Positions 9,001 to 62,527 of a stretch of DNA of 64,000 bases are shown in pieces. Where the stretch lies: assembly GCA_028753945.1 (NCBI GenBank), contig JAPNXP010000005.1, positions 310,001 through 374,000 on the forward strand, written 5' to 3'. Below the pieces are notes generated by a model. The model ran no database searches. It was not told the origin of the DNA and was given only the letters and a program-made list of their open reading frames with translations. A program made the translations under genes and the position numbers. Source of the stretch: Hexactinellida sp. DTS-2022 (taxonomy: Eukaryota > Porifera > Hexactinellida). The first letter of the stretch is position 1. Each line of letters opens with the position of its first letter.

Positions 9001-12000
9001 TAATACAGGGTACATTTCCAACATAGTGTTCTTATATCCGACATCTACTGTATAACATTCATAAATTGCCCCTATATTAACAGTGTCGCTATGTGTCACA
9101 AGGTGTCACAATGTGTCGCTATGTGTCACAAGGTGTCGCAATGTGTCACAAGGTGTCACAAGGTGTCGCAATGTGTCACAAGGTGTCGAAATGTGTCGCT
9201 ATGTGTCACAAGGTGTCGCTATGTGTCACAAGGTGTCGCAATGTGTCACAATGTGTCGCAATTGTGTCTGTACCTGTTCCGGTTCGAAGGGACTATCATC
9301 CTCGTTATCAGATTGGTACTCATCCAGGTTAGAGTCTATCGGGTCTGGATCCGACTTTATCTGCTTCTGGATATCTATATGGAATTGGAACTATGTAATA
9401 ACACCTGGATATCTATATGGAACTATGTAATAATATCCCTATATAAACATTAGAACCTCGTTAGTACCAACACGGTTAATACAAACACTATTTCAGTCCC
9501 CTTCAAAGCCTTTTCAATACAAATGGTTCAAAATTTCGACAAAAATCCTGGACACAGGTTATAAAAACCTGGACACTATTAGTTTAATGTTAACAAATCG
9601 GAGACAATTGGATGATAATACAAAATAACTGCAAAAAAAACCTGGATAATTTAGAAAATTACTGGACATCGCATATTAATTGTAAAAACTGGACTGTCCA
9701 GGCTAAAACCTGGATAATGGTCACCCTACATATCCACTTGAATAAGAGCCACTTTAGTGACACAATATATACCTGCAAAGGTGTTAATCCCCATTCCAAA
9801 AGGTGTGTAGGTGGCAGATCCAAACAGATCTATATTATCACTTGTGAATATCATTTCCCTCGGGGTCTGCATATTCACATTAGGCGTATGTAGGTGGCTG
9901 TTTTCCATTATCATTGTTTGACCCATGGTTTGATCTGCAGATATCTTGCCAACCGAAGCGGCCTATGGAATGTAAGGGTAAAGCGTGTTAATATAGTGAA
10001 CTCTCGTTATAAAGAAGTGTGCTTGGGACCTGTAAATACCTTCGTTATATCCGGATATTCGTTATAAGCGGATAATAATTAATGCATTTAGTGCTCTGGG
10101 GAAAATATCCATTTCGTTATAAGCAGTTATTTCGTTATATCCGACTTGGTTATAACGTGAGTTTACTGTATAATATAGAATATGATTATATATAGTGTGT
10201 TAATATAAGGGAATAATTAGGATAATTTCCCTGAGGCTATCATTATTATTATTATTGTAACTGGAACTGGAACTAACCATAGCTATGCCCTTGGTGTTAG
10301 GTACGATAACCTTAAGTGGCTTAGAAGCGGCTGCTTTAACGGCTTTGGGACTGACGTGTATCTTGGGGGCCAAAGGGAGAGAGAGACTGAGATTACCAGA
10401 CTCTATCACCTGGGGGGTAAACAACAGGTAAACAGGTAAACAGGTAAGTAAACAGGTAAACAACAGGTAAACAACAGGTAAACAAATAAGTAAACAGGTA
10501 AACAAACAAACAGGTAAAGAAACAAGTAATAAGTAAGTAAATAAACAAACAAATAAACAAACAACCAAACAACCAAACAAACAAACAAACAAATAAACAA
10601 ACAAACAAACAAACAAATAAACAAACAAACAAACAAACAAACAAACAAATAAACAAATAAACAAGCAAACAAACAAACAAACAAAAAACGAACTAACTAA
10701 CGAATAATCAGTTCCAATGAATAGGAATTATATATAGCAACAAATGCATTAACAAATAATAATAAGTGTAGTATACCGATAGTATTCAAAACCATATAAA
10801 TACACAATATAATTGCATTATTATTCTATAACTAATTAGTACCTTAAGTCTCTGGGATTTCTGTGTAACTTCAAGTGGCATACCTAAGTGTGCCACTTCA
10901 AGTGGCATGCCTAAATGTGTGGCCTCAAGTGGCATGCCTAGATGTGTCGCTTTATCGTCCCGTGTGTCGCGGGGGTCCCTGGAGGGGGGACTGCTTATGG
11001 AACTAATGTCGGTTGTGGATTGAATAGATTTGGGACTGGCACCTTCGAAATGGCTCTGTAGCGTAACTGGCATAGTCTGAGGAAGTAGCTATAAATAGAA
11101 CGTAAATAGAGACTAATGGGAACCAACAGGACAATACGGTATATGCATATATAATATGGTTATGAAATACAGTCGACTCCGCTTAATTATTTGCAAGGAA
11201 ATAAAGTAAGAAAAATCCGATAGTTAGAATAAACCAATTGAAAATTATACAAAATTGGAATTTCTTATAATTTCTTATAAGATTTAGAATAAATAGTTAG
11301 TTAGAAAAAAACATTAATTAGGGAACACCGGTTTCGACTGTATTAACATTCCTATTGCCAGAAATATAGTGGATGCCGGTTATATCAACATAGTCGGGAA
11401 CTGCACTTATTGTTCTTATAACCGGCATAAGTTATATAGGGTATATGGCAACCGTTTCCCAACATAGTGTTCTTATAACGGTGTTCTTATATCCGGTATC
11501 TACTGTATTAGCATTCCTATTGCCGGGCTAGTAACTATACTATGCACATACTGTGTTGGGATATGGTATCCTCTGGTGGTGTTGGTGTAGCTTAGAGGGG
11601 TCGGTTGGGTTGGGGGGGTACAGACCAGGTTGTAGCATTCGGGGGTCCAGGGCTCTCTTGTAGGACTGGTCCAGTATAACCCCAGAGGAGAACATAGTGG
11701 ATACTCCATTGTAACTGGTCTATAGATAGTGTGTGGTAATTATACTGGTCTATAGATAGTGTGTGGTAATTATACTATAGTGTTGATTGTAATATAGAAT
11801 GGTAATATAACAGTATAGGGGAATGGTAATAACAATAGGAATTAAACTATACTGATGTTTGTTTGTTTGTTTGTTGGTTGGTTGGTTGGTTGTTTGATTG
11901 TTTACTTGTTGTTTGTTTGTTTGATTGATTGTTTACTTGTTGGTTTGTTTGTTTGTTTGTTGTTGTTGTTTGTTAGTGTATTTGTCTTGTTTGTCAGTCT

Positions 12001-17536: not shown

Positions 17537-19725
17537 TCAAGTGAAATCACTCGAGCTAGGGGGTCTGTGAGACATCAGCTCTGTCCATAGTCCACTTGTG
17601 CCACTTATGCCATCTGTGCTACTTTTGAAATCTGTATCACTTATACCACTTATGCCATATGTGCCACTTATACCACTTTTGAAATATGTGGCATTTATAC
17701 CACTTGTGCCATCTATGCCATTTGTGCCACTTATGCCACTTATATCACCTGTGCCACTTATGCCACTTGTCGCTAACTCATTCGAGAGTTTTTCGAGTGT
17801 AAGCATATCTTCATCTTCCGAAATATTTCCTCCATTTTTATCCTCAAAATATTCCAAAGTGGAACCATCACTTGAATCGGAATCGGAACTATGACTGTCG
17901 CTATTTTTATAGACACTAACCAAGGGATTCCAAACTACTTTCCCGCCTAAAATACTTGGTATATCTATAGAATGTGACTCTAGATTATCATTGGTCAGAT
18001 TATCATCTTTTGACACTTGTGTACCCAATAGGAAAAACCCGCTCAAATCTGTTTGTGCCACTAATTTTACTTTCAAATCACTGCCACTAATTCCAACACC
18101 TTTATTAGTTCCGGATATAGTTCCATTTGTATGCTCATAACGCTCTGAATTTGTAATTTCTGTAATAACTAATGAGTCTCTATTTTTAGGCTGTTGTTCT
18201 ATTTTTAGATCTGCGTTGTAGAATATATTATATTCACTAATACTTGGTTTCAAAGTCGATTCTTGAAAATCAGAGTTTTTCTCAAGCTTTTCTTGACTTT
18301 GTGACTTTGGAATTTCGCTTTTATATTTTGTCAGCAAAAGTCTGTCGAAATAACTTAGTTCTGAATTAGTTGTGAACGCGGGCAATTCTAGAATTTTCTG
18401 TTTCATTTCAGTTTCAGTTCCAGTTCCAGTTTCATTTCCCGCCTTTCTCCATTCATTCAAAACTGCCTGGAAAGATTCGGCGCTCTCAGATTCATTATAG
18501 CAACCGTCCAGTAAGGAATGTTTAATTGGAGAATTCCTATCGCCCATATCCGTATCTAGGTTACCACTTTCTAATTCAATGGAATGTGAGGTGTCGAGTG
18601 CCACATTTGGCACCTTATCAGGCACAGGTGGCGGATGTGGCACAGTGGTAGTGTCAACCACAGAAGAATTACCAGTTAGAAATTTAAACTTTCTATTTTT
18701 TTTCGGGTAACTACTTCTAATGTCTTTGATTAGTTGTTGTGTGTGTGTTGACACAAAACCAGTTTGGCCACTTGACCAAAATGTGTCAGAACTCAATCCC
18801 TCTCTATCCTATAAATAGAACTGTGTATAAATACAGAGAATATTCTCTATATATGGAACTATAATAGGAACTAAGGGATGGGAACAATTTCAGATCCCTT
18901 TGGTGTAGGCCATCATCCAGGCAAAATTTTTACAGAATTTTTTATTTTTTTATTTTACCAAAAATTTAATCGACATCGCTCACACGCGCCTAAATTACTC
19001 ATTTGTATTGAGTTTATGGGAGCATCTCTCGATTTTTTCGCGCCTAGATTAAAAATTTCTGTATAATTATAGTTCCATTTATACTTGCCCAAATATTGTT
19101 ATTCTTCTTCAAGATAACTTGAAAGTGCAATAGAAACTATAGTATATCTATATTCAGTCATTTGCAACGAAAATCTAGGGAAACCAAAAATCCAAAAATC
19201 CAAAAATCTAGGGAATTGTTGTTAAGTATGCCATATAAGCAACTACACTAACTATACAGGAATTAGTGTATGCTTATAGTCCCGTCACTGGAAAATTGGT
19301 CCCGAAAATCTAAAATTACAGCTGTGCCGACAGCATGTTTTACAGGTGGTATTATCAGATATTGAGTCTCCCAAATATTTAATTAGTTATGTCTTATTGA
19401 GTAACTAAATAACATAAACCTCAGAAGGACTAATTTTCCACAGAAGGACCAAATTTCTATGAAAATTTTGGGAAAAAAAAATGTTAATTTTGAAAATTTT
19501 GGTTTTGACCCCCAGGCCAATTTTCCAAGAAGACCAATTTTCCAAGGGGACCAATTTTCCGTGACAGTTCACATATGTAACCTTGTTTAGTTCCCGTTTC
19601 TTTCTATCACTCTCCAGCTGTCTCCGCAATGCTACCAATCTCTGTTCCATAAATGCAGTTTCTAATTCCAACTTATTTCGAGCCGACTTACCAGATTTGT
19701 TAGATCCCCTATCCTGTGTCGCCAT
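17537..19725 (-). CDS. Two-exon acidic/Ser-rich protein; weak ZBBX resemblance
   Basis: Exon 1 (19582-19725, 48 codons) starts at ATG 19725 and ends at a GTTACATATG donor. Exon 2 (17537-18808, 423 codons plus stop) follows a CTATTTATAG acceptor; phases match (0/0), giving 471 residues. Residues 15-47 form a charged coiled coil (KLELETAFMEQRLVALRRQL). Around residue 155 is SFQAVLNEWRKA, a motif I associate with ZBBX (B-box domain protein), but no Cys/His B-box is present. Much of the rest is Ser/Asp/Glu-rich. The C-terminal 70 residues repeat (I/S)GISGT, produced by a GTGCCACTTATGCCA-type DNA repeat at 17590-17770. Function is not assigned; the ZBBX link is a low-confidence hint. Confidence 0.65.
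18809..19581 (-). other. Intron of the 17537-19725 gene
   Basis: Non-coding. It contains CGCGCCTA-bearing repeat fragments (18985-19060), a run of CAAAAATC/CTAGGGAA repeats near 19180-19210, and half of a family-M MITE at about 19304-19345 (AAAATCTAAAATTACAGCTG). A frame reading across the exon-1 donor to 19405 is not needed. Confidence 0.6.
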
Positions 19726-41000: not shown

Positions 41001-41309
41001 TCAGAATGCTGTTTGGTTGTTAATGACCCTTTCATCCAGGCGCGTAATTTTGAAATGAAACTTGTCTAAAAATTGTCTAACCTATTATTCTATTTATAGT
41101 ACCAAGCGTGTACCTAACCTATTATTCTATTTTTAGTATCAAGCGTGTACCTAACCTATTATTCTATTTTACCTATAACCTATAACCTATGCCTATTATT
41201 CGATTTATAGTATCAAGCGTGTACCTATGCCTATTATTCTATTTTTAGTATCAAGCGTGTTCACATACAAGCTGATGAAGACTTCATTCCGGCCGAAGTT
41301 GCCGTGTAA
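33941..41309 (+). CDS. NDE1: NudE homologue (NDE1/NDEL1), dynein-LIS1 adaptor
   Basis: NudE proteins link LIS1 to cytoplasmic dynein in mitosis and nuclear positioning. Exons: 33941-34056, 37380-37533, 38134-38282, 39026-39071, 39472-39565, 39870-40093, 40513-40604 and 41249-41309; phases all agree and end at TAA, giving 311 residues (human about 335-346). The N-terminus has QAVDYWKGIAYDF, matching the family's EEEAxYWKDLA. Residues 25-185 are a long coiled coil, including the conserved KIIMSSLSDIESKLGE. The C-terminal part has the NudE hallmark LQALSILGDILRKVG|SVESRLASC split across exons 6 and 7. Intron 1 is 3.3 kb; the others carry MITEs, minisatellites and tetranucleotide tracts. The last intron ends in four tandem copies of the exon-8 acceptor. 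Confidence 0.93.
36515..36687. mobile_element. MITE family E in NudE intron 1
   Basis: GAGTTCGGATATAACGAAATAACC...GGTCCCAAGCACTTCGTTATAACGAGAGTTGACTG. The left end is slightly truncated. The rest of intron 1 (34057-37379) is plain AT-rich DNA with no exon-like segment. Confidence 0.75.
37570..38115. repeat. (AAAC)n, (AACT)n and (AAC)n tracts in NudE intron 2
   Basis: Low-complexity tracts run almost up to the exon-3 acceptor at 38133, displacing any normal polypyrimidine tract; only GTCTGTCTATAG remains. Confidence 0.85.
38467..38842. repeat. Minisatellite ATTCGTTATGGCGCTTAATTTT, about 17 units
   Basis: Head-to-tail 20-25-bp units of TTCGTTATGGCGCTTAATTTT with CTCAAT/CTTAAT and length variants fill NudE intron 3. 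GGCGC-AAT words continue as single copies to 38970. Confidence 0.9.
39090..39255. mobile_element. MITE family A variant in NudE intron 4
   Basis: CAGTAGACTCTGTTAATAGGAACACCAGGGGACC...GTTCCTATTAACGAGAGTCTA. A similar sequence lies at 4180-4395 and 52045-52212. Confidence 0.7.
39257..39415. mobile_element. MITE family C in NudE intron 4
   Basis: CAGTCAGGTTATTTTATTATGAACATTCAGGGACC...TTGGGACCATAGGGC...GCAGACCTGACTG, directly adjoining the element at 39090-39255. Confidence 0.85.
39570..39655. mobile_element. Right half of a family B MITE in NudE intron 5
   Basis: CGGTTAATATATTTCTCCGCTTAATCGGGTC...GGTCCCGAGGTGACTCTATTAAGCGGAGTCGACTG. The left end is missing. Confidence 0.7.
39665..39850 (-). 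repeat. Interspersed repeat family N, copy 3 (inverted)
   Basis: Reads in reverse relative to 347-535: CCTAATCCTGGTCTGATACAATTTCCATGCG...AAATCATACTTCTAAAGGAGCG. Lies in NudE intron 5. Confidence 0.75.
40211..40400. mobile_element. MITE family A in NudE intron 6
   Basis: CAATAGAACCTCGTTAGTATGAACACGG...GTTCCTATTAACGAGGTTCTACTG, with ATTCAATGGGTATTACTCCGG inside, as in the copy at 42076-42232. Preceded by an AACAAGTAGTA array (40130-40200). Confidence 0.8.
40845..40970. mobile_element. MITE family M, copy 3, in NudE intron 7
   Basis: AAAAAATCTAAAATTACAGCTG...CAGCTGTAATTTTAGATTTTTT, arms near-perfect. Confidence 0.85.
41081..41262. repeat. Four tandem copies of the NudE exon-8 splice acceptor
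   Basis: The block CCTATTATTCTATTT(A/T)TAG followed by TATCAAGCGTGTACCTA recurs with AG at 41099, 41136, 41210 and 41248. Only the last continues into the open exon 8 (AG at 41248, exon from 41249). Each copy carries the first 11 or so bases of the exon. Two extra CCTATAACC pieces lie between copies 2 and 3. Confidence 0.9.
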
Positions 41310-47840: not shown

Positions 47841-49219
47841 ATGGATTCCAAATCTAAATATGTCCTTACCCGCTTAAACGACGTGCTATCGAAATCGAAT
47901 TTACAACCGACCATAAGGGACCTCGAAAGGAGGTGCGAAATAATTTCCCGAGGAATAAAAAGTGTCGAAGCGAGCCACACTGTCATCAGAGATAATCTGA
48001 CAGAAACGAAATATAATTTGAAAAGGCGTGAAGACTTAATGTGGATCAGAAGTGGCAGAGACACAACTGTAGACAAAACAAATAAGGAAACAGTTGAGAC
48101 TAATACAGATGGTAAATAACAACAAATAACAGTAGAACCTCGTTAGTAGGAACACCAAGGGACCGTCAATATGTGTTCGCATTATCCTGAATTAGTATTA
48201 ACCAATATCATTTGTATTGAAAAGGCTTTGAAGGGGACTGAAATAGTGTTCGTATTAATACAGTGGATGCCGGTTATATGAACATCGTCTGGAACTGCAT
48301 ATAATGTTCTTATATCCGGCATCTACTGTATTGGTTAATACGAATTTCGGATAAGGCAAACACATTTGACGGTCCCCTGGTGTACGTATAAGGAGGTTAC
48401 AATGTATATTCTATTTTAGAAGATGAGCCACTTAGTCCCGCGCCACTAATGCCACCTGACTCCACTTCACACCTCATAGAAAACAAGATGTTGGGCCTAC
48501 AAATAAATCTGTCGGTCCTAAGCCCGCCCCCCGCCTCTGAGACTCAATTCTTCCCCGAGAAAGGGAGTGTGATGTGTGGTGGGGCTGAAGTGGTTTCTCT
48601 GATAAGCCCAGTGGAGCCTCTGGGGACAGGGGACACCTCTAAAGGCGATACCGTTAGTAAACAACAACAACAACATGTAGATACAAATAATACGCACATA
48701 GCAAACAAATTGAAATGCAAATAATATATTGCAAACAAATACAAATACATCAAATCACAAAATATTTTTGGAATTGCCACTGTTCTTATTATAAAGTAAT
48801 ATGGAACCTGTTAGTTCCTATTGGAACCATGACTGTTGTTTTGGCCTAAATCATCTATTTTATCTAATATGCCCCAAAATATCGGCCAACACCTTTTCAA
48901 TATTAAACCGGCTTCGCAAAGGTAATTTTGATGTTAAAAATGGCCATTTAGTTCCCAAAATGTACTTGTTTGCATATATATAAGTGGTTCCATTTAATAT
49001 TATTTTATCAGTGCGGAGGTGTTATAAACAACAACAACAACTTACTCTACTGTGGCATTTAGGCGCTCTTGGTCACCTGTCAGAATGTGGAACTGAAACT
49101 AGATGACGAGGTGTTGGTGATGAGAAAATCTAAGAATTGGATTCCCGGAATAATAGTGCACGTAAACAGTCAGAATAACTTATTCAACGTCAGTGGTGAT
49201 GGGTTCCATGAAAAGTAAG

Positions 49220-49268
<49 letters not shown>

Positions 49269-52200
49269 ACTGTTGTTACTGTTGTTACTATTACAGTGGA
49301 TGCCGGGTATAAGAACATCGTTGGGAAATACCGTCTTATAACCGACATAAATTAGATAAAGGTATATGGAAACCGTTTTCCAATATAATGTTCTTATAAC
49401 CGGTGTGCTTATATCCGACATCTACTGTATTGTCGTTATTTTTGTTGTTCTTGGTGTTGTTTTTTGTTATTATGTTGTTGTTGTTCTTGTTCTTATTGTT
49501 TATATTATTATTGTTGTTGTTATACTATTATTATTGTTTTTATCATTGTTGTCATTATTATTGTTGTTACTGTTATTACTATTACTATATCATTATTATC
49601 ATTATTATATCCCCCCCCTGTAGAGGAGTGTCTAGCAATCGCCTCTGTCTCTTTAAGCACTCTGCTGCTATAAGCATAGGCATAGGGGCTCGGATAGTTG
49701 CCCTGTACGGACAGCTGGACATATACTATGCAGGAATAACAGCTGAGACCCCGTGTCTACAGAATGATGGGAGAACTCTTGTGTTCTTTGATGACGGGTT
49801 TGCTCAGTATCTGAGCTCGGATAATGTGTATCTAGTCGCCAAGTCAAGTTAGTTGTAGTTGTTGTTGTTGTTGTTGTTGTTGGGTATAGTATATTGGGTA
49901 ACACCTTTTTAAAATTTGTATATGGTTTATTTGTGTTTCTTCCTGATGTGTTGTTGACCGATACAAATAAGCCCTTATTTGTTGTTGTTTACATGTGTTT
50001 ATTATCCCCTATCTCATTATTAACACCTATGTTGTTGTTGTTGTTGTTGTTCACTTGTGTTTATTGCCACCTATGGTGTTGTTCTTGTTATTTACCTGTG
50101 TTTATCTGTGTTTATAAACATCTATGTTGTTGTTGTTTACCTGTGTTTATCTGTGTTTATAAACATCTATGTTGTTGTTGTTTACCTGTGTTTAGCTGTG
50201 TTTATAAACATCTATGTTGTTGTTGTTTACCTGTGTTTATCTGTGTTTATAAACATCTATGCTGTTGTTGTTGTTGTTTACCAGTGTTTACTACCACCTA
50301 TATTGTTGTTGTTGTTTACCTGTGTTACTACCCGTAGGCGCGAGTGTGTGGGAGGAGGTCGACAAGCCCTGTCGGGACTTCATCCGGAGATACCTGACCC
50401 TGTACCCGCGGCGCAGGATGCTCCGTCTGCGGATAGGGGACGAGATAACCACAGAGTGGAGGGGCGAGTGGTGCAGCCCTCGAGTCGTCAGTGTGGACTG
50501 TAGTCTCGCCAGGGTGCACTTTGTAGAGCACGGCATCAAGGAGTGGATATATAGGGGGTCCACAAGGTACGTATGTACTATAGGTATAATCTCCATTGGT
50601 TATAAGGCCACGGGATCAAGGAGTGGATATATAGGGGGTCCACAAGGTACGTATATACTGTATGTATAATCTCCATTGGTTATAAGGCCACGGCATCAAG
50701 GAGTGGATATATAGGGGGTCCACAAGGTATGTATGTACTATTGGTATAATCTCCATTGGTTATAAGGCCATGGGATCAAGGAGTGGATATATAGGGGGTC
50801 CACAAGGTACGTACGTACTGTATGTATAATCTCCATTCGTTATAAGGCCATGGGATCAAGGAGTGGATATATAGGGGGTCCACAAGGTACGTATGTACTG
50901 TATGTATAATCTCCATTGGTTATAAGGCCACGGCATCAAGGAGTGGATATATAGGGGGTCCACAAGGTACGTATGTACTATAGGTATAATCTCCATTGGT
51001 TATAAGGCCATGGCATCAAGGAGTGGATATATAGGGGGTCCACAAGGTACGTATGTACTATAGGTATAATCTCCATTCGTTATAAGGCCACGGCATCAAG
51101 GAGTGGATATATAGAGGGTCCACAAGGTACGTATGTACTATATGTATAATCTCCATTGGTTATAAGGCCATGGCATCAAGGAGTGGATATATAGGGGGTC
51201 CACAAGGTACGTATGTACTATAGGTATAATCTCCATTGGTTATAAGGCCATGGCATCAAGGAGTGGATATATAGGGGGTCCACAAGGTACGTATGTACTA
51301 TAGGTATAATCTCCATTCGTTATAAGGCCACGGCATCAAGGAGTGGATATATAGAGGGTCCACAAGGTACGTATGTACTATATGTATAATCTCCATTGGT
51401 TATAAGGCCATGGCATCAAGGAGTGGATATATAGGGGGTCCACAAGGTATGTATGTACTATAGGTATAATCTCCATTGGTTATAAGGCCATGGCATCAAG
51501 GAGTGGATATATAGAGGGTCCACAAGGTACGTATGTACTATATGTATAATCTCCATTGGTTATAAGGCCATGGCATCAAGGAGTGGATATATAGGGGGTC
51601 CACAAGGTACGTATGTACTATAGGTATAATCTCCATTGGTTATAAGGCCATGGCATCAAGGAGTGGATATATAGGGGGTCCACAAGGTACGTATGTACTA
51701 TAGGTATAATCTCCATTGGTTATAAGGCCATGGCATCAAGGAGTGGATATATAGGGGGTCCACAAGGTACGTATGTACTATAGGTATAATCTCCATTCGT
51801 TATAAGGCCACGGCATCAAGGAGTGGATATATAGGGGGTCCACAAGGTACGTATGTACTATAGGTATAATCTCCATTGGTTATAAGGCCATGGCATCAAG
51901 GAGTGGATATATAGAGGGTCCACAAGGTACGTATGTACTGTAGATATAAATGTAACATTAATGGAGATAAAGATGTCAAACGTTGGTATTTGTCTCTAAT
52001 AACAAATTTACATTTATGGCATAACAACCTTGGTTATCAATATTTTAATTGAACCACTAACAAGTAGGAACACGGATAAGGGAAATATCGGTTAAGGAGT
52101 ACAAGGTTTAATTACCCTAGCCTATACTAATGCATGCAAGTGACTCCGGTTAATACGAATTCCGGATAACACGAACATATTAATACGGTCCCCTGGTGTT

Positions 52201-53127
52201 CCTACTAACAGAGACTGTGTACCTATAGATTCCGAGTGCTGTATAATTGTCTCACGAAGGAATATAAGGAGTCTCAGCTGATCACTCGCAACAAACACAT
52301 CATAACACATATGCTGTTTGACAGCCTGTGTCCCCCCTCTGTTGAGGCCTCCGGTACCAACACTGGGATAATGGATAGCAGCTTCCAATCCGATTCCACT
52401 ATTGGAGGTATAGTGTATAGTGTATAGGGATAGTAGTTAGTTAGTTTGTTTGTTTGGTGTATATTTAGTTTGCTTTAGTTATTTTTGAAAATACTTTTTG
52501 TTATTTTTGTTTGTTTGTTGTTTGTTGTTTGTTTGTTTGTTTGGTTGTTGGTTTGTTTGTTTGTTTGTTTGTTTGTTTGTTTGTCTGTTTGTTTGTCTGT
52601 TTGTTTGTTTGTTTGTTTGTCTGTTTGTTTGTTTGTTTGTTAGTTTGTTTATTTGTTTCTCTGTCTGTTTGTTTGTTTTGTTTATGGAAGAGATTCTTTA
52701 CACTTTTTGGCTATAAAGTATGAAGAATAAAGTTGGATTTTAACTTGGTATTAAATTTCAGATATCCCCCAGAAATAGTTCCACGACCCCCAGTTTTAGA
52801 AACACTGGTTACTTTTTTTGTCTTTTGTTTGTTTGTCACGTTTGTTTGTGTGTACTTTACCCTATATCCCTATATACCCTGTATCATGTTCCCATAGAGT
52901 GTAAGGAGGTAACAACAGGCCCAGAGGCTCATCACAGAAGTGACGACTACGAAATAAGCAGCACAACTCTAGCCACTGGGGAATCCATAGGAGATCTCAC
53001 AGAGGATAATTATGAGGAGTCCTCGAGCTTCTATAATGTGAGATAAACAACAACAACAACAACAACAATAACAACAACAACTACAACTACAATAATGATA
53101 ATTATAATAACAACAACAACAACAACA

Positions 53128-53158
<31 letters not shown>

Positions 53159-56100
53159 CAACACAACAATGATAATAATAACAATACCGACAATAACAAC
53201 AACAACAACAATAATAACAATAATACCAACATCAACAATAGTATTACAGTCAGGTTCTAATATGAACATTCAAGGGACCAAATATTGTGTCATAATAGAG
53301 AGACTTTATAATAAGCGAACTCAACTTAATAATAACCCTATGTAAGTTGTTAAATTGGGACCATAGGGCTTGTTCATAATAAAAATATGTTCATATTAAG
53401 CAGACGAAAAATTGTTCATAATAAGCAGACCTGACTGTAACAACAACAACAACAACAATGATACTCTAAACATATCTATTTAGTCTGCAGAAGGATCTGA
53501 TCACGATAGCGACTACACAGAATGTTTGACATATGGAACTAACAAGTCTATAATTCCAGTTCTTAAGCCTGTCACAGAGTCCGAAGAGACTTCCAGTCCT
53601 ATAGAGGAGCCTCCTCCTCCTGAGGGCTCTCTCTCAAGCGTGCGCGTTACGCGTAGCAAGTGGAGGAATATAAACAAACCGAATATCATACTAGGTACTA
53701 GTGTTGTAAAATTTCCAAAAATTTAGTTTTCCATGGAAATTTCCGGAAATTTGGGAATTTTTAGAAATTTTCCGACCTTACAACACTACTAGGTACCCTA
53801 CTCCTGGTGGTGATATAGTACAGGGGTTCCAAATTTGGTTGTATACAGCCATTTGTAAATACGGTCCTAAAGGGTCATAAGAGGTCACATAGCGAATAAT
53901 TTGATTACAGTGAACTCTCGTTATAACGAAATAACCGCTTATAATGAAATGGAGATTTTCCCCAGAGTACTAAATGTATTACAGTCAACTCCGCTTAATA
54001 GTGCCACCGGTTAATCGGTTTCTCCGCTTAATTGGGCCAAAATTTCACAGGATTTATAGGACAGAATTACAGTTTGGCTTACAATATTTTCGGTTAATCG
54101 GTTTCTTTGCTTAATCGGGTCAAAACAACCTGGTCCCGAGGTGGCTCTATTAAGCGGAGTGGACTGTAATTATTATCCGCTTATAACGAATATTCGGATA
54201 TAACGAAGGAATTTTATTTGTTTGTAATACTTCTGTAGCTATTAGGATGCAACTTGTAAAACTGATCAAATTATTCAGGATTTTGTCACATAATATTTTA
54301 TGGGAATCCTTATATAGAGCTGAGCTTTGTAGAGTTCAGATTTTTTCCCATACTAAAAGCCCAGGCTTACTTTCTAAAGGTCAATTTAAAACTCTGGGGA
54401 AAAACTGACCTTTCTCAGTGCATGAATACACATAGTGAAAAACTGAACTCTACAAAGCTCAGCTCTATATAAGTAATTTCATATTTTATAAGGTATATAT
54501 AAAATGGGTTGCATTACAAAAGAGTTTGGAACCCCTAATCTATTTATTCCCAATCCTATTTACTTACATTCCATAGCTCCACGGGTTGGTTGGGAACCTG
54601 GAACTATAAATACCAACACCTTTAAGAACCCATGTAAGCCAGATAACGAAAAAGCCGTTCTATTTAACAACCAGAGTTATTCAACCAGTAGCCACTATAA
54701 CTCCACACTCGAAAACGAAGCAATCGAAGATTCAATTAATTTCTGGTTAACTCAAACGAATAAACTGGAGCTGAAAACTCAATCTGAAATACAAACAAAT
54801 TGTGTCACACATTCGTTTAATATGTGTCCGTTAAATGAACCATTTGAAGAATTTATTTTGAGTGAACATAGTTATTCAAAATTCAGGTAAGAATATAATT
54901 ATTTGTATTGTCAGGTTATTTTGTTATGAACATTCAAGGTACCAAAATTGTATTCATAATAGAGATACTTCTAATATGCGAACTCAACTTAATACAAACC
55001 CTATGTAAATTGTTAAATTGGGACCATAGGGCTTGTTCATAATAAAAAGTTTCATATTAAGCAGACGAAATTGTCCATAATAAGCAGACCTGACTGTATT
55101 AGTCTATGCGAACTTTGATTGGCTAAGCTATTATTACAATACAGGCGCCAGAGTTATATGCTCACTAGTTAACATATAAATAGAAAAATTTTAAGTAATT
55201 TTGACAGATTTTTATTTAACAGCATGCTCACTGGTATTCTATACATTCAAAATTTTAATAATTTTCCACTTTTATTTACAACTAAATAGAAATTTTTGTA
55301 AATAGATATAGAAAAACTTTTGAATTGATTTTAACACATTTTTATTTAACAGCATATTTACTAGTTAATATAAATTCAAATTTCTAATTAATTTCCACTT
55401 TTATTTTACTGCTAAATAGAAAATTTTGAAAATAGAAATAGAAACTTTTGAATTTATTTTAACACACTTTTACTTTACAGTTCAACTCATCGTCCAACTC
55501 AACTACGGAAGTCTCAAAACAGAGTCACATTAGGGGACCCCAGATCCTGTGTGTACCGTCGCTCCATATATGGAGATGAGTTGACATATCCGGATGCCAC
55601 TTTCATACCTCACGATTGTGACACTGTATGTGCTTCTACTGCAGTTTTGAATCAATCTCTTCAACCAATCAACTACCTCTCTACACCAATATTCCTAGGT
55701 GAGGATTGTATATCGTATATCGTAATTTATAAATTTGTTGTATACTGTATGTTCTAGTTAGGTAACATTATATTAAATCGGTTATAAGTTTCAGTTCGCT
55801 GGACAGTCGAAACCAGTTTTTCTAACCAATTAATTGCATGGAAATAAAGAAAAATTCGATAGCTAGAATAAACCGATTGAAAATAAACAAATTTGAATTC
55901 TTACACATTTATACTAAATAGTTAGTTAGAATTAACCCGGTTTCGACTGTACTACAGTGGAACCTGCAGAAACGGGGTGCCAGGGACGCAAGGTCTTAGC
56001 CACCCCGATTCCCCATTTCCAATTCTGCCGATTCCCCGTTTGTGGAGGTTAATTTATGTGGGACTAGGAATTTGCTGCATTTTTTTAACCCAATTTTCAG

Positions 56101-59100
56101 AGGATCCCCGTTTCCACAGGCCCCGTTTGTGGTGTTTCCACTGTATCAGTGTTAACGAGAGTACACTATAGTTAAGTTCCATATTACAATGTGCCATATT
56201 ATCCTAAGGTGTTAGTTCCACTACATACCTGTTATAGGCTGGAGACGCGAGTTGAACTTCCAGCCCCACAAGTGTAAGCCTGTACACGTGTACTACACAG
56301 CCCCGTGTTCACGTAGACTAAGGAGTTTGGATGAAATAGAATACTACATACACCTGACACAGACTACAAATGTGTCAATCGATATGTTCTCACTTGACAC
56401 TTCTATTGATATACAGAATTCCGTTATTTGCATTAATTCTCCGAAACTATTTGTAGGCGATTTAACTCTAGGTGTTGAAAGGTAGGTGTTATACATTTCT
56501 TACATATATGTACAGTGGACTCTCGTTATAACGAAGTGCTTGGGACCTGTAAATTCCTTCGTTATATCCGGATATTCGTTATAAGCGGATAATAATGAAT
56601 GCATTTAGTGCTCTGGGGGAAATCTCCATTTCGTTATAAGCGTTTATTTCGTTATATCCGACTTCGATATAACGGGAGTTCACTGCATATCGGCTACACC
56701 TTAAAAAACGTCTTCGTAAAGGTGAATTTTTAATGTTAAAAATGACCTGAAAATGCATTAGAAAAGTGTTGGTCGATTAACTCCTATTTATAATATGTCA
56801 GCACACCACTCTATATAGGCTCCCGATCCCATTTATAAACGAATTGGATACAAAACCACTCCCCCCACTACACTACACCACAAAGCGTATTTGCTATCCA
56901 GGGGTAAACATAAACACAAACAACGAATTTATGACGTGTTGTGACTGCACGGATGATTGTCAAGATAAATCTAAATGTACCTGTTGTCTTCTTACAGCAG
57001 AAGTTTCACGTACCAAAGACTTTTATGGGTATTCTATTTATAATACTACCAGTTCTATTTATAGAAATACAGTCGACTCTGCTTAATTCTGTCACTATGC
57101 TATGACTTATGAGTGTAGTTAGACCAAATTAACCGAAAAATGAAGATCCAAATTAACCGAAAATATTGAAGCCAAATTGTAATCCGTACCGTAAATCCTG
57201 TAAAATGTAGACTCAATTAAGCGAAAAATCCAGTTCAATTAACCAGTGTCTCTCTATTAAGCAGAGTCAAATGTATTATTGTGAACTTAATAAGTTTTAA
57301 TATAATTTTTTAGTTCAGTTATTAGAATATGTTAAGTAGAATAGTTGTGTAAAGTACAAATTACGAGTGCACATTCCAGGTACCAGAACCGTCGTCTAGT
57401 GAGCAGCTGTGGTGTCGCTATATACGAATGCAACTCAAGATGTCACTGTAGTGCGAATTGTGGCAACAGAGTTATACAGAATGGGATTCAAACCCGTTTG
57501 CATGTATTTAAAACTGAGAACAAAGGGTGGGGAATAAAATGCATCGACGATATTCCTAAAGGGGCGTTTATATGTACTTACGCTGGGTACATATATAATG
57601 ATGAAATGGCAAATGAGAGAGGAGTAGATTTTGGCGATGATTATTTAGCTGAATTGGATTATTTGGATGTTATGGAAACTAAAAAGGAGGGGTAAGTTGT
57701 TTGGTAAAATACTTAAATTAAGTACCTACTTTTCCATTTTTCAAAAGTGGACCCCCTATAGCAAATATTATACATTCTGTGGATCCCCTCCCATTGACCG
57801 TAATACAAATTTTGAGATCTTGTGGACCCCAGTTTGGGAACCACTGGTCTAGAGGTATAATGTAAACCCACTATAAAGCATTTAAGACCAGTTACATTTT
57901 AATGGTGTTATGTGAACGATACAAAAATTTTGAAAACTAACAAAATATTTGTAGACCGTAGTTCATGTTTCATGACACACAAACTAATCTCCCGTTTGTG
58001 TCTCTAGCTATTCCTCGGGGCTGATATAACATTCCTTGTTGGTGTCCCTCTCTTCCTATGGTGTGTAGGAGGTTGCCTGCTGGGGAGAATACACGAATGG
58101 AGTGTGAGCCGTAATCGCTAATGACAATGTTGTTGTTTGTGTCCAAACAGAAGAACATTGGGTATAACACATCCATTCCTTCTCCTCTGCTAATGAGAGA
58201 GTGTAGCATGTCTCCCTCTAGTGACAGTACCAGCATACATGGATTATTCAATGGACACAGTACGTATACGCGGTCATGCGATAGCTTGACGTCATATGGT
58301 CGTAATATTGCCTGATGTGTGATGTTCCTCACATGGTTTAGGTCTGTGTCGAATACACAGATTCTGTTGTTACGGCTATCTGCTATGAACACCTGTCCGT
58401 TGGGATCTGTTGTTAGTTGTAAAGGAGATCTGAATTCTCCGTTATTCGATCCCCTCTTACCAATCCGCTTAACGAAGCTAAAATCAGTTAGCGAGTATTT
58501 GCTTACAGTGTGTTTCGCGTCGCTACTAACATACAAACTATTCCCATGAATAGCTATGCCATATGGAGTATTCAACCGTCCGTCACCTAACCGATTGAGA
58601 TACTCTCCTGTTTCGGAGAATATCTCTATTCTGTGTTTGAGATAATTTGCTACGAATATCTGGTTTGTAGCTTCGTTAATGGCGACACCAAATGGGTATT
58701 TCAACTCGCCAGGACCTGAACCTTGTTTCCCAGTAGCGACAGTGAGCAAATGGAATGTGGCGTAGTTAGGCAGCCCTACTGGTACCTGTGTAATCTCTCC
58801 GAGACGGGAAATGCTCACTTCGAGGTCTCGTGTGTCGCACCGCCACCTGAATTCTGTCTCAGCTGGAATGTTCGTTCTCAGTTCCCTCAGCAGCTGAGCT
58901 CTGCGGAGATTCAGTAGCGCTATGAGGCCGTCTATGGCTCTGTTTATTCGTGTCTCTACGGGGTCTGCTGCTGGAGGGGGAATGGGATAGCGAGCTGCCA
59001 TTTTATTGTTTGTAGAAGAATAGTTGAATAGTTTAGGTATGAATTGGTTGCTTTGTGTATTCTGTGTATTTATAGCTGTGTTATGATTTGTTTGTTGCAA

Positions 59101-62100
59101 CAAACAACAACAATGATGATACGATGATGTGAGTATAATGTGGTAGTACACAACAACACGAGTTATACACGTGTATGTTGTAATGTCTCGTTACTAGGAT
59201 GCTGTAAGGCAGGCCTGCACAACCCGCGGCCCGCAAGGGCATTTTATCTGGCCCGCATGGAAAAAAACTTACTCAATTTATACTGGCCCACATTCTTATT
59301 TTATACACCCATTATATTGATCTTCAATTTAGTTTATATATTTTGTTTTACAAATTTCTTTATGACATATTTTCTTCCAAACAATTTGGGAATAAAGTCA
59401 TTGTCCTGGCCCGCAACATAGTTTGAATATCATAATGTGGCCCACTTCTCAAAAAGGTTGTGCAGGGCTGCTGTAAGGAATGTGGTTAAGAGTTCTTTAT
59501 TTTGTCCTAGTTGCAATAAAAGTCTAGAATAACAATATATCATATTTCAGTTATAACAAAAAATACAAGAGTTTATTCGTGTAAATTTTTATCCTATGAT
59601 ACAATAAGTTATCAGGCACTATTAGTAAACCTAATCATAAGGTCTACTAATTTGTTGTTTATTTACTGAATTGCACATAAATAGCTATATTATTCATGTC
59701 AGAGAAGAAATCAAAACCTCGTGAGAGAAGCAAGGAAGATACCTGGAGATCGAATGAGCTCAAACAATTTGTGGGAAAGAAAACTGAGTCCACTTCACAG
59801 GGTAGAAAAGTGGCACACAAACCATCTGAATCTAAGAAATCTAGACATGACCCAAAGTCTAAAGAACTGGCACCAACCTCTTCTTTAGTTCCAAAAGATT
59901 CTAAGAGAACTGCTACTAAACATAAACAAATGCTATCTGATAAAAATAAGGAAATAAGTCGTAAATTGGAACCAACAAAGCATAGTGATAAACCTCGAAC
60001 TGAATCTAAAAATACAAAAATACACTCGGAAAATAGCGACACTAAACTGCCACTTGACACCCAGGTAAACCCATCTCTTGACACCAAAGTGGAACCATCC
60101 AACATTCCAGAGGATATCCTAGATACGATAGTTCCATTTCAAGTGGCAGAAGGACACAATCTGGATAGTGTTTCCGATTTGGAAGATGTGGCATCTTATG
60201 CGGAAGATTTTGAGAGTTATGACGAAGATTTTGAGGATGGGTCAAGTGGCTCAGATGGTGAGCGCGACACATTTTCTGATCTGCCATCTGAGCCACATGG
60301 AGATATTGATTTGATTAAACAAGCCATTGAGCTTGAGAACTTAAATGTGGCAGAAATAGGTGGCACTGATAGTGAGCAATCTGGTTCCCAATCATCTCTT
60401 GATAAAACACAAATTCAGTTAACTGGAAAAGGATTCATAAGTTTCCACATTCCAAAGGCTGAAACTGTTGCTAACGATGAGGTGATTGCGAAGACACATA
60501 CTCGATTGCGCCACTTAATGCCACTTCTCCAGTTAGACTTTGAATCAATGGATTTATTCGATATTCCGCCACTTTCTGAATATGACATTTATATAAAGCA
60601 GTTTGGATTTGAAATGACTAGACAAATGGCGATGCAATCTGATGAGGACACATTTGATTGTGACACACAGACCGACACAATTATCACACGTGTTAAGTGG
60701 ACCCAACATTCCATAGAAGGTGGTGAGTGCTCATGTGGTGGCACTGTCGGCGACACAATTGAGACACAATTTGATTCAACTGGAATTCAAGAAAACTCTT
60801 CAAATTTTCTTTCATTTTTCTACAAAACCTCACAGATAATGTGTATTGTTTTAGAAGAAAATACACAAAATGTGGTACGAAATGTGTCGCAATCTACCAC
60901 CGTGCCACTTTTCACGTTTACACATCCAAACTCGATAGAATTAGCCAAAATATCAATCCTAGAAGGGAGACATATTGTGTCCACAAATGTGTCTTTATCT
61001 CAGCCCAATTCCATCCTCATTGCTTATGCACCTTTAGAACAGAATAATTTCATGGATACCATTTCTAGAAAAGGAATACTTGCATTCTGGAATATTAACG
61101 ATCCCTACCAACCGAAACGGTTAATGGAATGTGACTCTACCCCCACTTGTTGTTGTCTCAGCCCTCAGAGAGTTTTCTTAGCTTTTGCTGGAATGGATGA
61201 TGGGTCAATCTCTATTTGGGATTTTCGCGACACATTTGACCCCTTGAGACCACCATATGAACAGAAGGGGTATAAAACAAGACCCCCTTCATTTTCGACT
61301 GCCATGTTTTCTACACAAGGTTCTCATTTCTCAGCAATCACCTCGATTGTAGCTATTTTTAGCTCCAAAAGCGTTAATGATAGTAGAAATGGTGATATCC
61401 TAATTGATGATGTTAGTATGAGTGGTTTGTCATTTCAGATTGCAACAGCCGATTCACAAGGTGTCATAAATATATGGGTTGTGGCGGAAATTACGAATCC
61501 GGACATTTGTGGCTCACTCACTGACTTAGGAATCGCCCCTGGATCTCGTATCAAATTAATTCGTACCACTTCAATATCAATTTTAATTCCAGCACGTGTT
61601 AGTTCCAAATTGAAATCTAAAGTAGCTGCGACACTTTTGAAATTCCACCCTACGGATTTGAGCCACTATTATATTGGAACTGAAGATGGTTTGGTTATCC
61701 ATGGTTCAAGATACACACCGAGACCGACACCAAAATGTTACTCTATAAAATACCAAAAATCCACTGTTACTTCCATGGATTTTCATCCATTCAATTCCGA
61801 CTATTTTGTAGTTAGTTATGCCGAAGGAAATTTTTCGCTTTTCAACCGAGAAAAGTCCGAACCCATTTTAGTGGCTGAAAGTGGTGAAATTGTGTCGCTT
61901 AAGAGGGTCATGTGGTCTCGTATTCATCCGCTTATAATCTATTCATTAAATGAAGATAAACAAATCTCAGTTTGGGATCTATCAATTAATCATTGCGCTT
62001 GTATTTCAAAAGAAAAATGGAAAATTTCTTCACAGAATCCAATTGAAATATTGGATTTTGATTTGATCCCTGAAAGGACACAATTGTGTCGAGATGGCGA

Positions 62101-62527
62101 GTTGGTCTTGACACTCTCAGATGGTTCCTGTCAGATACACCCCTTGCTGCACCATAGTTCCATATCTGGAGGTGTTAGTTCCGAATTGGAGGCGTTTACT
62201 AACTTTGTTACAAACTGTGAAAAATTCATTTAACTTTGTGTTGAATACTATACAATGTATTCTAATTACTATCGAGATTATATGCATTTATTTATATTTG
62301 TATTTACTCGTTTGCCCTTTATTTCTCTGAAATTCCTATTCACACTTTATCTATCTTATTAGTTGGCACTCCATTTGTTTGTTTGTTTGTTTGTTTGTTG
62401 TAGGTATGAGCCTTTCTATGGATCTCTACTATTCTCGAATGAAAGCAATGATGTAACAATCAACAAATCTGAAACTGGAACTAAATACAAAGAGGAATTG
62501 AATTCACCATTTATTGATTCAAACCAA
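47841..62527 (+). CDS. SETDB1: SETDB1/eggless H3K9 methyltransferase, 5' part (gene runs past the window)
   Basis: Nuclear H3K9 methyltransferase. Exons: 47841-48111, 48420-48652 (donor uncertain), 49063-49214 (or from 49084), 49624-49847, 50338-50566, 52229-52407, 52898-53037, 53484-53694, 54493-54886, 55481-55698, 56238-56481, 56819-57028, 57380-57691 and 62404-62527; phases agree, about 1047 residues so far. Order: N-terminal coiled coil; tudor repeats (VELKLDDEVLVMRKSKNW; YYAGITAETP...VFFDDGFAQYL; CRDFIRRYLTLYP...EWRGEWCSPRV...EWIYRGSTR); MBD-like region (HVYYTAPCSRRLRSLDEIEYY); Cys-rich pre-SET (CCDCTDDCQDKSKCTC; ECNSRCHCSANCGNRV); first half of the bifurcated SET domain (FKTENKGWGIKCIDDIPKGA ...YAG). 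KKEG|YE joins exons 13 and 14 across a 4.7-kb intron, as KEGYE does in SETDB1. The catalytic C-terminal SET half is not in the window. Reading on from 62527 would stop at 62563. Confidence 0.92.
48131..48405. mobile_element. Family A MITE interrupted by a family D MITE
   Basis: Outer element: CAGTAGAACCTCGTTAGTAGGAACACC...GGTCCCCTGGTGTACG. Inner element (48260-48332): CAGTGGATGCCGGTTATATGAACA...GTTCTTATATCCGGCATCTACTG, TA-flanked. D inserted after A. In SETDB1 intron 1. Confidence 0.85.
49217..49280. repeat. (GTT)n microsatellite in SETDB1 intron 3
   Basis: About 60 bp of GTT starting 2 bp after the exon-3 donor GTAAGT. A family-D MITE (49294-49430) and an irregular TTG/TTA tract (49430-49615) fill the rest of the intron. 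Confidence 0.85.
49294..49430. mobile_element. MITE family D in SETDB1 intron 3
   Basis: CAGTGGATGCCGGGTATAAGAACA...CTTATATCCGACATCTACTG, TA-flanked. Confidence 0.8.
50000..50330. repeat. 45-bp-type minisatellite in SETDB1 intron 4
   Basis: Units of TTGTTGTTGTTTACCTGTGTTTATCTGTG...AAACATCTATG are repeated about five to six times up to 7 bp before the exon-5 acceptor CCCGTAG. All three frames are open because the array lacks stops, which is not evidence of coding. Confidence 0.85.
50531..51947. repeat. 80-bp tandem array, 18 units, copying a SETDB1 exon end and its splice donor
   Basis: Unit 1 (50531-50610) spans the last 36 bases of exon 5 (encoding GIKEWIYRGSTR), the donor GTACGT and 44 bases of intron. 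It is then repeated every 80 bp: 50611, 50691 ... 51891. Every unit keeps CAAGGAGTGGATATATAG(G/A)GGGTCC and a GT(A/G)(C/T)GT donor. A three-unit (240-bp) higher-order block is duplicated (50941-51180 against 51181-51420). Differences between units are few (CCATTGGT/CCATTCGT, GGGG/GAGG, CGGCATC/TGGCATC). Confidence 0.95.
52045..52212. mobile_element. Family A variant MITE before SETDB1 exon 6
   Basis: AGGAACACGGATAAGGGAAATATCGG...GGTCCCCTGGTGTTCCTACTAACAGAG. Ends about 15 bp before the exon-6 acceptor. Confidence 0.65.
52505..52690. repeat. (GTTT)n tract in SETDB1 intron 6
   Basis: About 180 bp of GTTT with occasional GTCT, TTGG and GTTA units. Confidence 0.9.
53044..53245. repeat. (AAC)n/(AAT)n tract in SETDB1 intron 7
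   Basis: Begins a few bases after the exon-7 donor GTGAGA and runs to the family-C MITE at 53246. Confidence 0.9.
53246..53440. mobile_element. MITE family C in SETDB1 intron 7
   Basis: CAGTCAGGTTCTAATATGAACATTCAAGGGACC...TTGGGACCATAGGGC...AAGCAGACCTGACTG. Confidence 0.85.
53909..54215. mobile_element. Family E MITE interrupted by a family B MITE
   Basis: Family-E left part: CAGTGAACTCTCGTTATAACGAAATAACC... Inner B element (about 53983-54167): CAGTCAACTCCGCTTAATAGTGCC...TTAAGCGGAGTGGACTG. The E sequence then resumes (ATTATTATCCGCTTATAACG) but lacks its right end. In SETDB1 intron 8. Confidence 0.85.
54318..54472. mobile_element. MITE family I, copy 2, in SETDB1 intron 8
   Basis: ATAGAGCTGAGCTTTGTAGAGTTC...GAACTCTACAAAGCTCAGCTCTATA, with the same GGAAAAACTGACCTTTCTCAGTG core as 25831-25989. 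It ends about 20 bp before the exon-9 acceptor. Confidence 0.8.
54912..55098. mobile_element. MITE family C in SETDB1 intron 9
   Basis: TCAGGTTATTTTGTTATGAACATTCAAGG...TTGGGACCATAGGGC...AAGCAGACCTGACTGTA. Confidence 0.8.
55170..55470. repeat. Imperfect tandem repeat, about 115-120 bp, in SETDB1 intron 9
   Basis: The segment AAATAGAAA..TTTTGAAATTGATTTTAACACA-TTTTTATTTAACAGCAT with TAGTTAATATAAATTC recurs about 2.5 times. Each copy ends in TTTA(T/C)(T/A)TAACAG or TTTACAG, resembling the real exon-10 acceptor TACTTTACAG at 55480, so this is another array that multiplies acceptor-like sequence. Confidence 0.6.
55804..55949. mobile_element. MITE family J in SETDB1 intron 10
   Basis: CAGTCGAAACCAGTTTTTCTAACC...GTTAGAATTAACCCGGTTTCGACTG. 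Internal match to 11190-11340. Confidence 0.8.
55955..56143. mobile_element. MITE family K in SETDB1 intron 10
   Basis: CAGTGGAACCTGCAGAAACGGGG...CCCCGTTTGTGGTGTTTCCACTG, TA-flanked, adjoining the J element. GC-richer than its neighbours. Confidence 0.8.
56511..56688. mobile_element. MITE family E in SETDB1 intron 11
   Basis: CAGTGGACTCTCGTTATAACGAAGTGCTTGGGACC...TTCGATATAACGGGAGTTCACTG. Confidence 0.85.
57068..57274. mobile_element. Diverged MITE family B in SETDB1 intron 12
   Basis: CAGTCGACTCTGCTTAATTCTGTC...GTCTCTCTATTAAGCAGAGTCAAATG, with AATTAACCGAAAA motifs inside. Confidence 0.7.
57970..59001 (-). CDS. NHL-repeat protein (second subfamily), inside a SETDB1 intron
   Basis: Intronless, 343 residues. 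The start is taken at ATG 59001 (MAARYPIPPPAADPVETRIN); in-frame sequence upstream is low-complexity. A short helical N-terminus (residues 15-60, RAIDGLIALLNLRRAQLLREL) precedes a six-bladed NHL propeller of about 260 residues: GSGPGELKYPFGVAINEATNQIF, NTPYGIAIHGNSLYV, GEFRSPLQLTTDPNGQVFIAD, LRPYDVKLSHDRVYV, MFFCLDTNNNIVISDYGSHS, YQPRGIARDTNGRLVCVS. No RING, B-box or coiled coil of the A/B/C type. It lies antisense in the 4.7-kb intron between SETDB1 exons 13 and 14. NHL propellers bind RNA or proteins; a specific role is unknown. Confidence 0.82.
   Translation of the reverse strand: MAARYPIPPPAADPVETRINRAIDGLIALLNLRRAQLLRELRTNIPAETEFRWRCDTRDLEVSISRLGEITQVPVGLPNYATFHLLTVATGKQGSGPGELKYPFGVAINEATNQIFVANYLKHRIEIFSETGEYLNRLGDGRLNTPYGIAIHGNSLYVSSDAKHTVSKYSLTDFSFVKRIGKRGSNNGEFRSPLQLTTDPNGQVFIADSRNNRICVFDTDLNHVRNITHQAILRPYDVKLSHDRVYVLCPLNNPCMLVLSLEGDMLHSLISRGEGMDVLYPMFFCLDTNNNIVISDYGSHSIRVFSPAGNLLHTIGREGHQQGMLYQPRGIARDTNGRLVCVS
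59002..59695. other. Divergent spacer between nested NHL gene and DYNC2I1
   Basis: About 700 bp that would hold both promoters. It contains a hAT element (59210-59470) and plain AT-rich DNA. No exon-like sequence. Confidence 0.7.
59210..59470. mobile_element. Non-autonomous hAT element with 8-bp target-site duplication
   Basis: 261 bp. Ends CAGGCCTGCACAACC and GGTTGTGCAGGGCTG are flanked on both sides by CTGTAAGG (59202-59209 and 59471-59478). Subterminal GCGGCCCGC/GGCCCGC motifs recur. The intact duplication indicates a fairly young insertion. Confidence 0.92.
59696..62233 (+). CDS. DYNC2I1: Dynein-2 intermediate chain DYNC2I1 (WDR60), intronless, nested in SETDB1
   Basis: Intermediate chain of the dynein-2 motor, which drives retrograde intraflagellar transport in cilia. 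Single frame of 845 residues from ATG 59696 (human about 1066). Residues 1-130 are Lys/Ser/Thr-rich. Residues 150-185 contain the acidic Ser/Tyr/Asp patch SYAEDFESYDEDFED typical of WDR60. The C-terminal half is a WD40 propeller: GILAFWNINDPYQPKRLMEC, TCCCLSPQRVFLAFAGMDDG SISIWDFRD, VINIWVVAEI, TVTSMDFHPFNSDYF, QISVWDLSIN. It lies on the same strand as SETDB1, wholly within the intron 57692-62403, and has no introns of its own. That is what an old functional retrocopy would look like, although no poly(A) tail or duplication is visible. Confidence 0.87.
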   Translation: MSEKKSKPRERSKEDTWRSNELKQFVGKKTESTSQGRKVAHKPSESKKSRHDPKSKELAPTSSLVPKDSKRTATKHKQMLSDKNKEISRKLEPTKHSDKPRTESKNTKIHSENSDTKLPLDTQVNPSLDTKVEPSNIPEDILDTIVPFQVAEGHNLDSVSDLEDVASYAEDFESYDEDFEDGSSGSDGERDTFSDLPSEPHGDIDLIKQAIELENLNVAEIGGTDSEQSGSQSSLDKTQIQLTGKGFISFHIPKAETVANDEVIAKTHTRLRHLMPLLQLDFESMDLFDIPPLSEYDIYIKQFGFEMTRQMAMQSDEDTFDCDTQTDTIITRVKWTQHSIEGGECSCGGTVGDTIETQFDSTGIQENSSNFLSFFYKTSQIMCIVLEENTQNVVRNVSQSTTVPLFTFTHPNSIELAKISILEGRHIVSTNVSLSQPNSILIAYAPLEQNNFMDTISRKGILAFWNINDPYQPKRLMECDSTPTCCCLSPQRVFLAFAGMDDGSISIWDFRDTFDPLRPPYEQKGYKTRPPSFSTAMFSTQGSHFSAITSIVAIFSSKSVNDSRNGDILIDDVSMSGLSFQIATADSQGVINIWVVAEITNPDICGSLTDLGIAPGSRIKLIRTTSISILIPARVSSKLKSKVAATLLKFHPTDLSHYYIGTEDGLVIHGSRYTPRPTPKCYSIKYQKSTVTSMDFHPFNSDYFVVSYAEGNFSLFNREKSEPILVAESGEIVSLKRVMWSRIHPLIIYSLNEDKQISVWDLSINHCACISKEKWKISSQNPIEILDFDLIPERTQLCRDGELVLTLSDGSCQIHPLLHHSSISGGVSSELEAFTNFVTNCEKFI

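Follow-up and report, generated by a model that had tools for sequence, protein, structure and literature searches.

A mirage-like minisatellite carries 18 copies of a predicted exon end and 5′ splice site in an apparently intact SETDB1 gene of a hexactinellid sponge

Tandem repeats that span exon–intron boundaries were named mirages in amphioxus, where they lie in Adh3, in the globin genes BflGb6 and BflGb9 and at other loci and are unstable in length (PMC3087553). In the same study, Adh3 data and globin RT-PCR suggest regular splicing, a gain of introns from such arrays is proposed, and a supplementary legend records one mirage as misassembled in the amphioxus draft (PMC3087553). A second study adds PGBD5 and troponin C (PMC3902484). 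A literature search over titles and abstract openings, with subscription journals mostly outside its range, gave no further array of many donor copies outside amphioxus; the nearest other cases were the potato RdRp gene (PMC4974935) and human tandem repeats (PMC2812944). In human genes, 66% of tandem-repeat intron modifications also have a transcript retaining the repeat (PMC2812944), a figure that argues against taking undisturbed splicing for granted.

The minisatellite described here is of the kind already known as mirages, a precedent that an earlier, sequence-only reading of the locus had missed. It resembles the amphioxus arrays in that the copies span an exon–intron boundary, splice signals are copied, the host gene is otherwise intact, the interior is homogenised and the edges are distinct; three of five mirage features were found, namely the boundary-spanning unit, the splice signals in the copies and the homogenised interior with edge units apart. 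It differs from them in the host gene, the number of units (18, compared with 6 and 3 in the BflGb6 haplotypes), the regular 80-bp period and the mean identity of 96%, and whereas the amphioxus mirages are known with transcript and polymorphism data, the SETDB1 array is known from one assembly sequence. With potato RdRp (PMC4974935) and the human repeats (PMC2812944), it shares a duplication that crosses an exon–intron boundary and copies splice signals, but there the new intron is used, whereas the SETDB1 copies are predicted to sit within an intron. The function claimed for the array is unproven. The locus is also like unproductive splicing with nonsense-mediated decay, as every alternative donor in the array would lead to a premature stop; known cases of such regulation rest on RNA evidence and differ in this from the present array.

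The window, the whole 64-kb stretch of DNA analysed here, corresponds to positions 310001–374000 of contig C14 in an assembly of 112,398,167 bases and 18 contigs. Tandem Repeats Finder identified in it an 80-bp array of 17.7 copies with 95% matches and 0% indels (score 2605; Table 1), which we cut into 17 full units and a partial 18th that diverges from the others after base 58. Each unit contains the end of coding exon 5, placed by homology and frame, followed by a GT donor and intron: 35 nt encode the 11 codons GIKEWIYRGST and two bases of an Arg codon, and 45 nt are intronic. The signal AAG/GT is present in all 18 units, continuing as GTACGT in 16 and as GTATGT in units 3 and 12. The 18-unit array with an exon end and donor in every unit had been recognised from the letters alone; its extent is corrected here, and the layout then proposed stands with 35 + 45 nt in place of a 36 + 44 split. 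A search of the assembly with the consensus unit, which scores the best candidates only, listed 18 matches among them, all inside the array, and an exact 27-base pattern had no match in a search of genome contigs. Two short pairs of inverted repeats lie around the array.

Table 1. Features of the SETDB1 locus, in window coordinates
Feature	Position	Strand	Basis
Exon-edge minisatellite of 17 full 80-bp units plus 58 bp of an 18th; start of unit n, 50532+80(n-1)	50532..51949	+	Repeat finding, unit slicing
17 repeated donors, GT at 50647+80k (k=0..16); 15 read GTACGT, and those of units 3 and 12 read GTATGT	50647..51932	+	Donor analysis
SETDB1 coding exons 1–14	47841..62527	+	Eye-chosen splice sites, Pfam; SET C-terminal half at L029:4038-4412
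Coding exon 5 of SETDB1 (229 nt), whose 3′ end lies in unit 1; encodes the last part of the Tudor region, to EWIYRGSTR	50338..50566	+	Model, Pfam, PDB match
Productive 5′ splice site in the model, AAG/GTACGT, unit 1	50567..50572	+	Model, donor analysis
Intron 5, 1662 nt in the model; holds the remainder of unit 1 and units 2–18	50567..52228	+	Model
SETDB1 coding exon 6, acceptor CCTATAG/ATTCCG	52229..52407	+	Model, PDB match
In-frame TAA in the intronic part of unit 2, reached by donors 3–18 and intron retention	50667..50669	+	Sequence, donor joins
Higher-order duplication, units FGH FGH; 278-bp identical runs 50932-51209 = 51172-51449	50932..51449	+	Sequence identity
Second array in SETDB1, 130 bp x 2.3, intron 9; intronic side of the 3′ splice site repeated	55178..55477	+	Repeat finding, sequence

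The host gene was modelled as 14 coding exons with 1019 codons in one stop-free frame. As the splice sites were picked by eye to keep the frame and then checked, the open frame is partly a product of construction, and the start codon and exons 1–2 stand without homology support. The modelled 1019-aa protein has Pfam matches over the cut-off for Tudor_5, Tudor_4, MBD and Pre-SET. The C-terminal half of SET, a separate piece about 4 kb past the window end, matches Pfam SET; the N-terminal half (exon 13) falls below Pfam SET at 0.001 and was recognised by eye, as were the exons lying between the end of the window and L029:4038. The best PDB match of the translated stretch that runs from exon 3 into exon 6 is a human SETDB1 Tudor structure (E 1.8e-40), and these matches together bear out the identification as SETDB1 made in the sequence-only reading, whose "exons 5–6" agree with coding exons 5 and 6 of the model. 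When donor 1 is joined to the acceptor of exon 6, the protein is colinear with human SETDB1 Tudor structures and gapless through EWIYRGSTR; the Tudor_4 match ends at residue 371, one residue beyond the split Arg codon. Past the join the human alignment is weak (FRVLYNCLT vs LEPMFSMKT). The gapless match over the join makes unit 1 the foremost candidate for the genuine end of the exon. Eleven of the 12 other modelled introns measure 308–882 nt, and the twelfth, intron 13 (57692-62403), measures 4712 nt. Two long open frames lie inside the latter: one on the minus strand (57970-59190) for an NHL-repeat protein with Pfam NHL over the cut-off, and one on the plus strand (59699-62233) for an 844-aa WD40-like protein in which no Pfam family exceeds the cut-off.

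We joined each of the 18 donors in silico to the exon 6 acceptor. In the model, the frame stays open for unit 1 alone, and the other 17 donors as well as intron retention give a premature stop. Donor 2 shifts the frame and meets a stop at codon 414 in exon 6 (52279-52281), while codon 404, the unit-2 TAA, ends the frame for donors 3–18 and for intron retention; this holds also for donors 4, 7, 10, 13 and 16, which shift by multiples of three. Sixteen of the 17 stops lie at least 57 nt upstream of the exon 5–6 junction. Judged from domain positions, the Tudor region would survive in a truncated product, and MBD, Pre-SET and SET would be missing from it. The earlier observation that 80 is not divisible by three holds, and the frameshift expected from it in most cases sharpens to a premature stop in all 17 others; of the two outcomes then offered, choice of unit 1 or tolerance of many isoforms, the model agrees with the former and gives one productive and 17 unproductive donors rather than many protein isoforms.

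The strength of the donors does not single out unit 1. Predicted duplexes with U1 reach -5.9 (16 donors) or -6.3 (two) kcal/mol in the array and range from -1.2 to -11.0 in the 13 other modelled donors, nine of which are weaker and four stronger. In a matrix built from the 14 modelled donors, the site itself included, AAG/GTACGT scores at the top of the gene, and four other sites in the window, counting both strands, match or exceed it. Since all 18 donors are equal by sequence, position or context must decide between them: exon definition would favour donor 1, with its 229-nt exon, and under intron definition the preferred site would be donor 18, which lies about 300 nt from the acceptor as against 1662 nt for donor 1. 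Predicted folding gives little help. With a folding window of 200, the unpaired probability of donor 1 is 0.015 in a one-unit version and 0.027 in the 18-unit array, and that of donor 18 is 0.003. The 13 other donors of the gene span 0.0002 to 0.17. With a window of 150, six later donors out of 17 exceed donor 1 in accessibility. Depending on window size, the predicted accessibility of donor 18 is 2 to 9 times below that of donor 1. Predicted folding of the first five units surpasses that of most shuffled sequences (z -2.1), with 2 of 100 doing equally well. Sequestration of donors within RNA was considered and rejected: each donor is self-complementary and would form a 14-pair duplex (-19.4 kcal/mol), but the expected frequency of self-complementary 12-mers in the window is 0.37 per 80 nt, and the accessibility of donor 1 is not lowered by copy number. 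A preference for donor 1 is suggested by protein conservation and by the published cases.

Pairwise identity among the 17 full units averages 96.4%, with 91.3% as the lowest value, and they comprise nine distinct sequences in the order ABCDEFGHFGHIHFFGF. Units 1–5 represent five types occurring once each, and units 6–17 only four types; in post hoc shuffles, the placement of five singleton types first had a frequency of 0.001 and an adjacent identical three-unit block one of 0.010. The block noted earlier (50941-51180 = 51181-51420) is confirmed within the 278-bp identical run, and the identity, this repeat and the few interior types support the recent or ongoing turnover that had been suggested. 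The homogenised interior and the distinct edges, recognised post hoc and including the divergent end of unit 18, match what a minisatellite would show if homogenisation had acted away from its 5′ edge. Variable positions number 11 of 80 in the unit and one of nine in the donor, a low donor variability that a young array would show anyway, with no sign of selection keeping the donors beyond youth. Selection on the repeated coding parts is suggestive only: 2 of 35 coding and 9 of 45 intronic sites vary (Fisher p 0.10, or 0.17 without a site variable in unit 18 only), and both coding changes are synonymous (chance 0.045, as 21 of 99 possible changes are synonymous). An origin as a templated insert was also considered, as the last 22 nt of the unit are missing after unit 18 and the 3′ flank holds a 9-nt inverted match (AATGGAGAT); it is unsupported, as 38 of 637 control stretches score equally well or better.

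We consider it likely that the array is a recently homogenised exon-edge minisatellite carried as intron, mirage-like, with donor 1 productive, and that it is mostly a passenger. The anatomy indicates a tandem duplication that crossed the boundary of SETDB1 exon 5 and intron 5, and the unit types and their order suggest growth to 18 units by slippage, unequal exchange or conversion. The spliceosome would most likely pair the unit-1 donor, the sole donor in the model to keep the frame of a conserved protein, with the acceptor of exon 6, so that units 2–18 would be removed with the intron. A later donor would, on paper, retain n x 80 nt and meet a premature stop, and its transcripts would presumably be degraded or yield a protein without the MBD and SET domains. 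With units 2–18 spliced out and later donors unproductive, the array would thus be mostly a passenger. The apparently intact gene, the join to exon 6 supported by the Tudor matches, the single productive donor, the recent homogenisation, the richness of the window in tandem repeats and the amphioxus precedents, where splicing seems regular, count for this explanation; against it count the equality of the donors, no feature of which marks unit 1, the preference that intron definition would give to donor 18, the folding run in which six later donors are more open than donor 1, the human repeats retained in transcripts and the weak human alignment past the join.

The sequence-only reading had proposed a bank of decoy donors that tunes SETDB1 by copy number. 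In such a bank, units 2–18 would draw U1 and the acceptor away from donor 1, a set fraction of transcripts would be unproductive, and the number of copies would adjust the SETDB1 level via nonsense-mediated decay. The intact donors in all 18 units, the premature stops and their distances from the junction would suit such a role, and as human repeats at such boundaries often show retained-repeat transcripts (PMC2812944), the array may affect splicing. Tuning of SETDB1 by copy number is possible, but the proposal as made is unsupported and in our judgment unlikely: donor 1 does not lose accessibility as units are added, the uniformity of the donors is that of a young array, and amphioxus splicing appears regular (PMC3087553, PMC3902484). 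An extended version would have the length-variable bank of 17 decoys set the fraction of early-ending transcripts and the array, marked by the gene's own SETDB1 product, slow the polymerase and shift donor choice, closing an autoregulatory loop tuned by copy number. SETDB1 makes repeat heterochromatin, and an array within its own gene could for this reason be marked by its product; the loop as a whole is highly improbable. We give a similarly low standing to a nascent exon or intron, for which an acceptor-like CTATAG/GTATAA at unit base 53 in most units would allow 63-nt exons or ratchet (zero-length exon) splicing. In a matrix of 13 acceptors from SETDB1, this site scores 7.3 in nine units and 6.0–6.2 in two more, compared with 8.0 for the modelled exon 6 acceptor, and the mirage authors' proposal of intron gain points the same way (PMC3087553), but a stop interrupts the SETDB1 frame within the 63-nt exon and AGs scoring at least 7.3 occur elsewhere in the window at about 0.77 per kb (48 in 62.5 kb of the plus strand and 49 in 64 kb of the minus strand), a density that gives a chance of about 1 in 16 for one in an ancestral 80-nt unit. 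Scarcely probable, finally, is an assembly artefact, with surplus copies or a second version of the repeated block introduced by the assembler. The repeated 278-bp identical run and the misassembled amphioxus mirage (PMC3087553) would fit this, but the 17 full units form nine types in an order unexplained by simple block copying, the array is only 1.4 kb long, and 18 contigs for 112 Mb suggest a long-read assembly.

Eighteen near-identical donors in tandem, of which one alone gives the protein in the model, provide a clean natural test of positional 5′ splice site choice, with first come, exon definition and intron definition as the modes at stake. If true, such an array outside amphioxus would mean that mirage anatomy is not confined there and is searchable in long-read genomes generally.

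Arrays with a period of at least 10 and at least three copies number 20 in the 64-kb window and 12 in the 30 kb beside it; we counted five in 60 kb from six other places, one of them a whole 10-kb satellite, and five in 20 SET-domain loci of 68 kb. The second SETDB1 array, in intron 9, repeats the intronic part of the exon 10 acceptor region, polypyrimidine stretch plus AACAG, and leaves the exon side unrepeated, with acceptor-like AACAG before 55223 and 55353 and the modelled acceptor before 55481. For other boundary arrays, we applied a crude codon score to 28 hand-picked arrays of 55 with a period of at least 20 (two of the 55 are the same arrays in two loci). The score is weak, since at the SETDB1 array the minus strand (33.0) beat the true plus-strand exon (29.9); by it, open frames scoring above 20 reach into the arrays at 9093-9268, L029:9821-9943 and L031:3073-3223, which may be further exon-boundary arrays. 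Another repeated splice-site region may lie at 41077-41260 (37 bp x 4.9), where several units carry acceptor-like TTTATAG or TTTTTAG before TA(T/C)CAAG. The arrays at 17592-17732 and 10862-10947, on the minus strand, look like in-frame coding repeats in open frames. The 10-kb satellite (L033, C1:10000001-10010000) consists in its entirety of a 349-bp unit in 28.7 copies at 88%.
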